64,000 nucleotides of DNA from Bacteroides sp. (GTDB lineage: Bacteria; Bacteroidota; Bacteroidia; Bacteroidales; Muribaculaceae). A program made the translations under genes and the position numbers. The notes beneath the pieces are model-generated. The model had not been told where the DNA came from, ran no database searches, and was given only the letters and a program-made list of their open reading frames with translations. Location of the stretch: positions 16,368 through 80,367 of the forward strand of contig JAAVDN010000003.1 of the NCBI GenBank assembly GCA_014801785.1, given 5' to 3'. Shown here in pieces: positions 47,792 through 51,002 of the stretch (position 1 is the first letter of the stretch; each line of letters begins with the position of its first letter).

Positions 47792-49393
47792 ATGCTGACC
47801 AAAATATTTTCTGCCTCCATCTCCGGAATTGATGCGATTCCGGTCTCCATAGAGACTTCCTCGACCAACGGCGCCTCTTTCATGATTGTCGGGCTTGCCG
47901 ACACCGCTGTCAAGGAGGCTTATCAGCGCATAACGACCGCTATCGAACATTCAGGCCTTTCCTGGCCTCACCGTCGTATGGTCATCAATCTCGCTCCGGC
48001 TGATATCAAGAAGGAGGGAGCGCATTTCGACCTCCCTATGGCTATCGGAATCCTTTCGGCCAACGGTATGATGGAAGGAGCGGATCTGGAGGCGACGATG
48101 GTGATGGGTGAACTCTCACTCGATGGAAGTGTGCTTCCTGTCAGAGGTGCGTTGCCGGTAGCTATTCTCGCCCGCTCGATGGGGCTGAAGAGACTTATTG
48201 TCCCGGAGGCGAACGCGACAGAGGCGGCCGTGGTCAACAACCTGGAGGTCTATGGGGTCAAGAGTCTCGGTGAGGCGACTGCTATCCTGACCAATAACTC
48301 CGATATCTCGCCGACGAATATAGACACACGCCGGATTTTCGCTGAAAGCGTTGACCGCTTCGACTTCGATTTCGCAGAGGTTAAGGGGCAGGAGAGTGTC
48401 AAACGCGCCTTGGAAATAGCCTGCGCCGGAGGACATAATATTCTCTTGGTCGGTCCTCCGGGAGCAGGAAAATCCATGATGGCCAAACGTATCCCATCTA
48501 TCCTTCCCCCTTTCTCGATGGCCGAGGCTCTGGAAACTACAAAGATTCATTCCGTCGCAGGAAAACTCAAGAGGGGTTCGATGCTGATGACAAGCCGTCC
48601 TTTCCGTTCCCCGCACCATACTATTTCCCCTGTCGCCTTGGTCGGAGGTGGTCTCTCCCCTATGCCCGGAGAGATATCGCTGGCCCATAACGGAGTGCTG
48701 TTTCTGGATGAGTTTCCGGAGTTCCCCCGCACAGTCCTGGAGGTCCTGCGCCAGCCGATAGAGGACCGGGTGATAACTGTCTCGCGTTCCAAATATACGG
48801 TCGATTATCCTACTTCCTTCATGCTTGTCGCCTCCATGAATCCATGCCCATGCGGATATTACGGACACCCTACGCGCAGATGCACCTGCCCCACGGGGGC
48901 TGTTGCCAAATATATGGGTCGTATCTCCGGACCATTGCTTGACAGAATCGATATTCAGATTGAAATCGAACCGGTGGAGTTTGACGCTATGGCGTCCCGT
49001 GCCCCGGGGGAAGGGAGTATGGAGATACGTCAGAGAGTGATGTTGGCGCGTGGAGTCCAGAGCGCCAGATACCGGGAGGAGAAGGGTATCTACAACAACT
49101 CCCAGATGAACTCCCGCCTCCTCCATAAATATGCCTGGCCTGACGAGGCGGGAATGGCAAAACTAAAGGAGCGGATGACGCGACTCAATATGTCGGCGCG
49201 TGCGTTCGACCGTATTCTAAGAGTGGCCCGCACGATCGCTGACCTGGATTATTCAACTCGCCGGAATCCGGACGGTTCTTTCTGTCATACCCCGGAAGAG
49301 GTAGTGGCGATCCCTGTCTCGACAGCTCATCTGGCAGAAGCCATCGGGTATCGAAATCTTGACCGGGGAAACTACGGAACAACTTTCGGCTAA
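47792..49393 (+). CDS. comM: YifB/ComM-family Mg-chelatase-like AAA ATPase
   Basis: 533 aa. The N-terminal ChlI-like domain starts MLTKIFSASISGIDAIPVSI; the AAA core has Walker A LVGPPGAGKSMMAKRI, 'RPFRSPHHTISPVALVGGGL', Walker B 'GVLFLDEFPEFPRTVLEVLR' and MNPCPCGYYGHPTRRCTCPT with Cys pairs. The C-terminal domain ends with 'VARTIADLDYSTRRNP'. In other bacteria ComM helps branch migration during natural transformation and recombination; its role here is assumed the same. Terminator at 49432. Confidence 0.92.
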   Translation: MLTKIFSASISGIDAIPVSIETSSTNGASFMIVGLADTAVKEAYQRITTAIEHSGLSWPHRRMVINLAPADIKKEGAHFDLPMAIGILSANGMMEGADLEATMVMGELSLDGSVLPVRGALPVAILARSMGLKRLIVPEANATEAAVVNNLEVYGVKSLGEATAILTNNSDISPTNIDTRRIFAESVDRFDFDFAEVKGQESVKRALEIACAGGHNILLVGPPGAGKSMMAKRIPSILPPFSMAEALETTKIHSVAGKLKRGSMLMTSRPFRSPHHTISPVALVGGGLSPMPGEISLAHNGVLFLDEFPEFPRTVLEVLRQPIEDRVITVSRSKYTVDYPTSFMLVASMNPCPCGYYGHPTRRCTCPTGAVAKYMGRISGPLLDRIDIQIEIEPVEFDAMASRAPGEGSMEIRQRVMLARGVQSARYREEKGIYNNSQMNSRLLHKYAWPDEAGMAKLKERMTRLNMSARAFDRILRVARTIADLDYSTRRNPDGSFCHTPEEVVAIPVSTAHLAEAIGYRNLDRGNYGTTFG

Positions 49394-49431
49394 TTCCGAT
49401 ATAGATAGTCGGCAGAGATCAATCATCACAC

Positions 49432-49473
49432 AAAACCGAGTCTTCTTTAGACATGAAGAAGACTCGGTTTTTG
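49432..49473 (+). terminator. Terminator after comM
   Basis: About 14-16-bp stem AACCGAGTCTTCTT/AAGAAGACTCGGTT with 8-nt loop, then TTTTT. Confidence 0.88.
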
Positions 49474-49538
49474 TATGCTTTCATTGCTGAATGGTAATAT
49501 CCTAATGCAATGACCGCAACTCCAAACCAACATTTACC

Positions 49539-50015
49539 TTGTCAATAACCTGTCAATAACTTGACAATAACAGGTAGATAACCCCGCAAAAACCTGTTGA
49601 AAACCGGTAGGCAACTTGTTGATTCTTTTATATATTATGGATTTGGTCAATTCAAATTTATTATTAAGGCAGAAAGGAATTGGAATATGCAAGAGCTCCC
49701 GCTATTTTTCTATTGACAAGTTGCCGACATCTTTTTCTACAACTTTACGGGGGTTTATCATCAGGTTAGCGGGATATTTAGTAACTTTGCCTAATATTTC
49801 AGACATTATTGTAGACAATTCCTGCAATTATCTGATTATCAAACATAAAGCTTGTAGACAACTCTGTTGATAAATATGTAATCACACCTTGTTTTCAATT
49901 AATCAAGGTCTTAGTTACAGAAGTTATTGACACTTATCAACACCCTTTATTGTTGTTGTTTATTCTTTTTAAGAATTAATTATTTTAAATCTAACCATAA
50001 ACCAAAAATAAAAAA
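49539..50015. other. Candidate chromosomal replication origin (oriC)
   Basis: No credible gene is found between comM and nadA. From 49539 seven consecutive 11-nt units end in AAC (starting TTGTCAATAAC, CTGTCAATAAC, TTGACAATAAC, AGGTAGATAAC, then CCCGCAAAAAC, CTGTTGAAAAC, CGGTAGGCAAC). Read on the other strand most resemble DnaA boxes (TTATTGACA twice, TTATCTACC, TTTTCAACA; consensus TTATCCACA). More boxes: TGTTGATAA 49865-49873, TTATTGACA 49925-49933 and TTATCAACA 49935-49943. A very AT-rich stretch (about 49945-50015) directly beside the last boxes could be the unwinding element. I could not prove it by strand skew, and an 84-codon open frame at 49616-49870 is probably spurious. Confidence 0.6.
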
Positions 50016-51002
50016 ATGGGCGCCCGCAAAGAGGAGTCAGTCTGCGAGAACTATACCGCAACGACTGACCCGGAGAAGAGAGAGAACACAGTCGAAGCGA
50101 TAAATCGTCTTCGCCGCGAGAAGAACGCTGTCATAATGGCCCACTATTATCAGCGTGACGAGATTCAGCAGATTGCCGATTTCATCGGCGACAGTCTGGC
50201 TTTGGCCCGCAAGGCGGCCGAGACCGATGCCGACATCATCGTTATGGCCGGAGTTCATTTCATGGGGGAGACGGCGGCTATCCTCTGTCCCGGAAAGAAG
50301 GTACTGGTTCCGGATCTGGAGGCCGGATGCTCGTTGGCCGACAGCTGCCCGGCCGATGAGTTCGCCGAATTTGTCGCCGCGCATCCCGACCATACGGTCA
50401 TCAGCTACGTCAATACCTCGGCGGCTGTCAAGGCCCATACCGACATTGTGGTGACCTCCGGGAACGCACGCAAGATTATCGATTCTCTTCCCGCCGACGA
50501 GAAAATAATCTTCGGTCCGGACCGGAATCTGGGCGACTATATCAATCGTGTCACGGGACGACAGATGCTTCTCTGGAACGGTTGCTGCCATGTCCACGAC
50601 CGTTTCTCTCTCGAAGCTGTCCTCGACATGAAGAAGGAGCATCCGGGCGCGAAGATTCTTGTCCATCCGGAATGCCGGCGTTCCCTGCAGCTGATTGCCG
50701 ATAAGGTCGGCTCCACGGCCGCGCTGCTCGATTTCGCCCGCAATGATGAGGCCAAGGAGTTCATCGTCGTGACCGAGAGCGGAATCTTGTTCGAGATGCA
50801 GCGTAACTGTCCCGAGAAAGTATTCCTGCCGGCTCCGGCCGAGGATGCGGAATGCCAGTGTAACAAGTGCGAGTATATGCGTCTCAACACCCTGGAGAAG
50901 ATTCGTCTCGCCTTGGAGCAGGAGGCGCCCGTTGTCAGCGTCGATGCCGAGACAGCCCGGAAGGCCCTGCGTCCCATAAAACGGATGCTCGAACTCTCTT
51001 GA
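50016..51002 (+). CDS. nadA: Quinolinate synthase A
   Basis: 328 aa. Conserved start: INRLRREKNAVIMAHYYQRD, then 'ADSCPADEFAEF', 'NTSAAVKAHTDIVVTSGNA', 'PDRNLGDYINRVTGRQM', and the C-terminal CQCNKCEYMRLNTLEKI with cluster Cys. It condenses iminoaspartate with dihydroxyacetone phosphate to quinolinate for NAD synthesis, using a [4Fe-4S] cluster. First gene right of the candidate origin; nadB and nadC are not in the window. The start at 50016 has a run of A upstream and fits the family, although the first ~20 aa are variable. Confidence 0.95.
   Translation: MGARKEESVCENYTATTDPEKRENTVEAINRLRREKNAVIMAHYYQRDEIQQIADFIGDSLALARKAAETDADIIVMAGVHFMGETAAILCPGKKVLVPDLEAGCSLADSCPADEFAEFVAAHPDHTVISYVNTSAAVKAHTDIVVTSGNARKIIDSLPADEKIIFGPDRNLGDYINRVTGRQMLLWNGCCHVHDRFSLEAVLDMKKEHPGAKILVHPECRRSLQLIADKVGSTAALLDFARNDEAKEFIVVTESGILFEMQRNCPEKVFLPAPAEDAECQCNKCEYMRLNTLEKIRLALEQEAPVVSVDAETARKALRPIKRMLELS

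Follow-up and report, generated by a model that had tools for sequence, protein, structure and literature searches.

A probable chromosomal replication origin upstream of nadA in a Bacteroidales genome, with a likely opening module whose triplets lack guanine

The stretch of DNA analysed here (hereafter the window) is 64,000 nucleotides long and corresponds to C3:16368-80367 of a 31-contig assembly that is 75.6% complete, and its nearest named relatives are assemblies of Muribaculaceae and other Bacteroidales. Within the window, a comM-like gene and nadA are separated by a gap of 622 bp, and this gap carries numerous sites resembling DnaA boxes, a phased array of 11-bp units and, close to nadA, a module of tandem boxes, spacer and triplets (49924-49964 overall) which was absent from the initial annotation of this DNA. 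The genes and features of the locus are listed below.

47792..49393, + strand: comM-like gene of the Mg-chelatase family (PF01078); a neighbour that is not conserved
49432..49471, + strand: terminator-like hairpin between comM and the candidate origin
49539..49615, - strand: seven in-phase 11-bp units, read directly; four have DnaA-box-like 9-mers with at most two mismatches
49733..49741, + strand: DnaA-box-like TTTTCTACA; a + strand box at about -220 is also present in relatives
49782..49789, + strand: promoter-like TAACTTTG (TAnnTTTG), directed at the opening module and nadA
49810..49873, - strand: DnaA-box-like sites at 49810-49818, 49853-49861 (TTGTCTACA) and 49865-49873 (TTATCAACA)
49924..49942, + strand: tandem co-oriented DnaA boxes TTATTGACA (49924-49932) and TTATCAACA (49934-49942) with one C between them; anchor of the putative opening module
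49943..49946, + strand: GC-rich spacer CCCT; among the 79 loci called automatically, 73 have a spacer of 3 or 4 nt
49947..49964, - strand: trio tract, reading TTA TTG TTG TTG TTT ATT on the + strand, that is, 3'-NAN-5' triplets without guanine
49943..50015, no strand: AT-rich stretch (82% A+T), presumed to be the region opened first
50016..51002, + strand: nadA, quinolinate synthase (PF02445); the usual right-hand neighbour

From our analysis of the gap, 11 boxes with no more than two mismatches to TTATCCACA were counted, compared with a mean of 3.0 in dinucleotide shuffles. None of 1000 shuffles matched this number (the highest had 10), and the next densest 622-bp bins of the 64-kb window contain 8 and 7 boxes. 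The seven consecutive 11-nt units described earlier at 49539-49615 were borne out by direct reading, each with AAC at its + strand end, and so was the resemblance of four of them to the box on the opposite strand, since exactly four minus-strand 9-mers within the array (49540, 49551, 49573, and 49595) have at most two mismatches to TTATCCACA. Three further boxes had been reported as well; all of them are present, but two were placed one base too far to the right (49925 and 49935 instead of the true starts, 49924 and 49934). A chain of four boxes with a period of 11 bp and at most three mismatches each occurred in 0 of 1000 shuffles and, under a looser limit of four mismatches, in 28 of 1000, and a chain of five boxes with a period of 9 exists elsewhere in the window. 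The motif TTATYNACA is not enriched genome-wide (140 copies in the 2.05-Mb assembly versus 133 for the reversed control). Five copies of it lie within 403 bp in the comM-nadA gap, and no other stretch with three copies within 1 kb was found among the matches listed (100 of the 140). The AT-rich DNA of about 70 bp that had been noted just before nadA was also recovered, adjoining the box cluster at 49943-50015.

We then examined the remaining content of the gap. An RNA element in the origin region was considered and rejected, as no match to Rfam at the gathering score was obtained within 49000-50700. The 84-aa ORF at 49616-49870 has no Pfam match; it was rejected as a gene and treated as a chance frame. 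The promoter-like TAnnTTTG was found between -330 and -120 of nadA in 70 of 77 loci, where shuffles would give 10, and it sits mostly near -193 from nadA in a nearly fixed place, the copy of the window being at -234. We suggest TAnnTTTG as a candidate promoter of nadA, and a transcript started from it would run across the presumed opening site.

To describe the conservation of the element, DNA upstream of nadA was taken from 76 of 80 loci (the remaining four have too little upstream sequence), which together with the window makes 77 rows. These rows carry a mean of 8.7 boxes per ~600 bp versus 2.4 in simple shuffles. The commonest same-strand box spacings are 10-11, 21-22, and 32 bp, in a count that has no shuffle control and enters related loci repeatedly; the peaks agree with the 11-bp phasing that had been put forward for the array. 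Many relatives share a group of minus-strand boxes near -390 to -335, as counted from nadA, and other boxes recur on the + strand near -220, near -180 and -120, and again on the + strand near -46 to -58. Similar clusters are conserved upstream of nadA across Bacteroidales. A search for the array at the comM-nadA junction of related genomes had been proposed as a check, and its outcome is divided: box clusters beside nadA are conserved, but comM is not the partner. A comM match within the fetched flanks was obtained at only 1 of the 80 nadA loci, and at another place, so that comM was rejected as a conserved neighbour; nadA is the usual neighbour of the element.

A wider survey of DNA upstream of nadA started from 40 genomes and rests on 38 of them, from 32 families, as the sequence of the other two ran into the end of a contig. 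A box followed by a spacer and a triplet tract was seen beside nadA in about 27 of the 38 (judged by eye, some of them weak), and nadA stands without such a module in about 11 of the 38 (also by eye). Adjacency of the module to nadA is not universal. As for the other genes, trmH lies to the right of nadA in the window and in many of the closest relatives. In many other Bacteroidales loci, it is found to the left of the presumed origin and is mostly encoded by the minus strand. The genes around the presumed origin are shuffled, while the pair it forms with nadA often stays together.

BUS origins are described as having one DnaA box or two in the same orientation, followed by a GC-rich spacer and, no further than 16 bp away, three or more 3'-NAN-5' triplets (PMC8287927), and the window has a DnaA box no more than 16 bp from at least three such triplets. 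The preference for 3'-GAT-5' trios is not seen in the window: there is no C on the + strand of 49947-49964 and hence no G on the trio strand. The register of the triplets is ambiguous by one base (there are TT runs), but the lack of guanine is certain because the + strand of the tract is without C. A reading of the triplets as TTG on the + strand with the middle A changed was rejected. In the published system, bases of the trio strand are numbered upward toward the boxes, which places the boxes 3' of the trios (PMC10721633). The trio strand of the window must accordingly be the minus strand, and its triplets retain the middle adenine. The box-spacer-triplet string of the window, TTATCNACANNNTTTATTGTTGTTG, is unique in the genome even when up to three mismatches are allowed. 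Judged from its sequence, 49924-49964 is likely a BUS-type opening site.

Our first triplet test was anchored on the best single box, and it often picked an upstream box and scored poorly. With at least four triplets, this test succeeded in 6 of 36 loci of the family set (shuffle mean, 1.7) and in 30 of 76 named loci (shuffle mean, 9.4). A joint score of boxes and triplets was adopted after the result of the single-box test was known. With the joint score, 15 of 39 loci were reached by at most 10 of 200 dinucleotide shuffles, although two of the 15 (L184 and L199) are considered spurious. The other 24 loci fail this strict test, some of them with interrupted triplets and some with nadA but no module. 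Automatic calling found a module in 79 of 117 loci, some rows of which are likewise considered spurious. Conceivably, the gap could be an origin which opens at another place, for example in the stretch 49620-49700 with its 70% A+T, the triplet tract being merely AT-rich, and the 24 of 39 failures would agree with that. We nevertheless consider such an arrangement unlikely, given that a box, a spacer of 3-4 nt, and NTN triplets recur beside nadA in divergent families, that the window outscores all 200 shuffles, and that 49943-50015 is the more AT-rich of the two stretches.

We then sampled GC skew in twenty 20-kb stretches of each of three single-contig genomes (G174, G158, and G249), which are Bacteroidales from three other families. 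In all three, the skew is minus in the stretch next to the start of nadA on its left (centre 10-17 kb away) and plus in the one next to it on its right (centre 9-14 kb away), and the cumulative minimum lies there; G249 is weak in that it has several other sign changes. The dnaA gene stands at the contig start in G174, G158, and G249, at 1.15-1.24 Mb (on the circle) from the skew minimum. An origin beside dnaA was rejected, as dnaA is on another contig (C9) in the window's genome and is far from the skew minimum in the three single-contig relatives. The strand bias of long open frames in single-contig relatives gave no clear pattern. Over the named loci with full flanks in which the module was counted, skew to the right of nadA exceeds skew to the left of the region in 33 of 43 (signed-rank p 2.6e-6, relatedness ignored), with only two module-less loci comparable in this respect. 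Among the closest relatives with full flanks, the right side is higher in 7 of 8, L075 being the opposite. Within the same family, G150 has nadA without a module, and its skew is weak and irregular, with no clear switch at nadA on its 1.59-Mb contig; as a same-family test, it is uninformative or a weak negative control.

Chance matches were frequent when 16 genomes were searched with the loose module pattern, and the reversed control gave a similar number in several of them. Among the matches listed, a match with zero mismatches lies directly upstream of nadA in G271, and another with zero mismatches lies away from nadA in G235. The latter module (L308, 1331-1918) is situated between dut-like and rfaE-like genes, named by eye, and the skew minimum is there. 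G235 was chosen for skew sampling on the strength of this perfect match, again with twenty stretches, and its skew switches between centres 11.5 kb to the left and 10.5 kb to the right of the match, where the cumulative minimum also falls. The switch from minus to plus is therefore found at the element in 4 of 4 single-contig relatives sampled (G174, G158, G249, and G235). As the switch in G235 is at a module away from nadA, it is the module that the switch goes with, whether or not nadA stands beside it.

The window's own contig gave a different picture. The initial annotation had set the position of the skew minimum as a check, and this was run for the window's genome on its own contig only: over C3:1-240367 of this 249,389-base contig, cumulative G-C is lowest at C3:199169. 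This point lies 133 kb to the right of the array, so that the check, within its range, speaks against the origin. Skew is clearly negative to the left of the site (-0.076) and is -0.032, with swings, to the right as far as C3:180367, so that the slope at the site goes from clearly negative to nearly flat with no clean switch. Further along C3 of G000, at about 140-240 kb (L177, L178, and L219-L221), skew is mostly negative from 140 to 200 kb, positive from about 200 to 230 kb, and then negative. The strong swings to the right of the window may reflect a rearrangement or a misjoined contig. In our view, the own-contig result stems from weak skew, from rearrangement, or from misassembly of a genome in many fragments, and it is not decisive because the contig belongs to an incomplete assembly. 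The minimum at 133 kb is the reason for which our confidence in the origin, although high, is held short of certainty.

What is directly seen, namely the box cluster, its spacing, the box-spacer-triplet order, the conservation, and the skew switches at the element in relatives, indicates that the comM-nadA gap is very probably the chromosomal origin, oriC. The earlier proposal of a chromosomal origin at this place gains support from the conservation and from the skew of the four relatives. It could be argued that the boxes form a DnaA-controlled or other regulatory region of nadA and not an origin, as the module is so often directly upstream of nadA and as the promoter-like TAnnTTTG within it is aimed at this gene. 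We find this explanation very improbable: in G235 the skew minimum goes with a module that is away from nadA, some genomes have nadA with no module, and tandem boxes followed by triplet tracts would not be expected of a promoter. A datA-like cluster, a reservoir of DnaA-titrating boxes at some distance from the true origin, would account for dense boxes far from dnaA and for the distant skew minimum of the own contig, but we give it scarcely any credence, as neither a box-spacer-triplet opening module nor a place at the skew switch, as in the four relatives, is expected of a reservoir.

If the gap is the origin, DnaA would bind the strong boxes and fill the phased 11-bp array at 49539-49615, and the co-oriented boxes at 49924-49942 would then load it onto the triplets of the minus strand (49947-49964). 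The triplet tract and the AT-rich DNA up to nadA would then open for loading of the helicase, as in a BUS-type mechanism. The growth of a DnaA filament, the capture of triplet bases, and the opening of the strands at this element are transferred by analogy from work on B. subtilis and may proceed here in the same manner. A further step of inference is that this lineage could read the triplets mainly through the middle adenine and the shape of the neighbouring bases, because the triplets have no guanine and the initiator has no guanine-contacting residues.

In B. subtilis, the guanine of the first position is reported to be hydrogen-bonded by Arg202 and Glu228 of DnaA and the middle adenine by Asn187, and origin function suffers when all trios are 3'-AA-5' (PMC10721633). 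In the alignment of the B. subtilis sequence of 8btg with DnaA of the window's genome, this region is free of gaps, and the residues of the latter are Ile (position 202), Ala (228), Asn (187), and Ala (190). The alignment was extended to 57 Bacteroidales, counting the window's genome (60 genomes were queried, and three gave no match), and to 30 of the 74 genomes in which DnaA was matched in other orders of Bacteroidia. Arg202 and Glu228 are absent from all 57 Bacteroidales and all 30 other Bacteroidia (87 of 87), and both are kept in the three non-Bacteroidota sequences of the alignment. Asn187 is kept in 20 of the 57 Bacteroidales; with so few, other contacts must have changed too, and, as judged by these sequences, reading of the middle adenine by Asn187 is too simple a model for the order as a whole. 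Position 183 (Glu in B. subtilis) is R, N, or H in 52 of 57 Bacteroidales and E in 23 of 30 other Bacteroidia, and Ile190 is kept in 1 of 57 and 22 of 30, respectively. In G310 (the genome of L014), DnaA was matched in two pieces at C13:3345-4670, perhaps due to a frameshift or an assembly error.

On the side of the DNA, a C at the first place of the + strand triplet, which equals a guanine in the trio, was found in 14 of 384 triplets versus 57 of 384 for the third place (from the 79 of 117 automatic calls). The contrast between the two places indicates that the rarity of guanine is not only a matter of low G+C. In the 13 joint-test loci without L184 and L199, C is at the first place in 3 of 71 triplets and at the third place in 20 of 71; with these two loci included, the first-place count is 5 of 80. 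It is an evenly poised question whether Bacteroidia have recoded the DnaA-trio, such that the first (box-side) guanine became rare, the Arg/Glu pair was lost, and the triplets and the pocket changed together. We infer the link between guanine-free triplets and the changed DnaA pocket from sequences of genomes which all share ancestry, the triplets being those of Bacteroidales. If true, a recoded trio would be a second reading code for origin melting.

These observations suggest that, for a large group of gut bacteria, the box-spacer-triplet module could serve in place of dnaA or nadA to locate the origin, a location on which estimates of growth rate from read depth in metagenomes rely. The locus is also a naturally occurring example of a joint difference in trio sequence and DnaA pocket, and it is open to testing in vitro. 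In E. coli, oriC has arrayed weak DnaA sites about 11 bp apart and an opening element 3' of the outer box; that element consists of 13-mers, and there are sites for IHF and Fis. The window resembles it in having weak DnaA sites in an array of about 11 bp and a presumed opening element 3' of an outer box.

Among Bacteroidetes, the oriC of Prevotella intermedia OMA14 was predicted with Ori-Finder at a GC-skew transition with several boxes, and its authors state that oriC is commonly far from dnaA in this group (PMC4755523). Our locus is like that of OMA14 in combining a box cluster at a skew transition, as in the relatives, with a large distance from dnaA; unlike in the window, no opening module and no nadA neighbour are named in the account of the OMA14 prediction that we consulted (PMC4755523). 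It is likely that the Bacteroidales origins described here have been predicted earlier. The BUS survey covered the predicted origins of 2070 species and found a candidate BUS in 1755; its main text names no Bacteroidetes, and its supplementary tables may well include some (PMC8287927). The authors of the BUS papers had themselves surmised that some trios deviate and that more sequences can be read (PMC8287927, PMC10721633). In the literature, taken as titles and the starts of abstracts with subscription journals little covered, no description of a guanine-free trio variant was found among the matches listed.

The closest comparison is with the BUS of B. subtilis oriC (DnaA-boxes #6/#7; PMC8287927, PMC10721633), which the window resembles in its two co-oriented boxes, its short GC-rich spacer, and its three or more 3'-NAN-5' triplets on a strand with the boxes at its 3' side. 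The window differs in that the published consensus is 3'-GAT-5', which is a preference and not a requirement of the search, whereas its own trio strand is without G, and in that the DnaA of its genome has I and A in place of Arg202 and Glu228. In essence, we read the origin as such as one of a known kind, and the guanine-free triplets together with the changed DnaA pocket as its new part.
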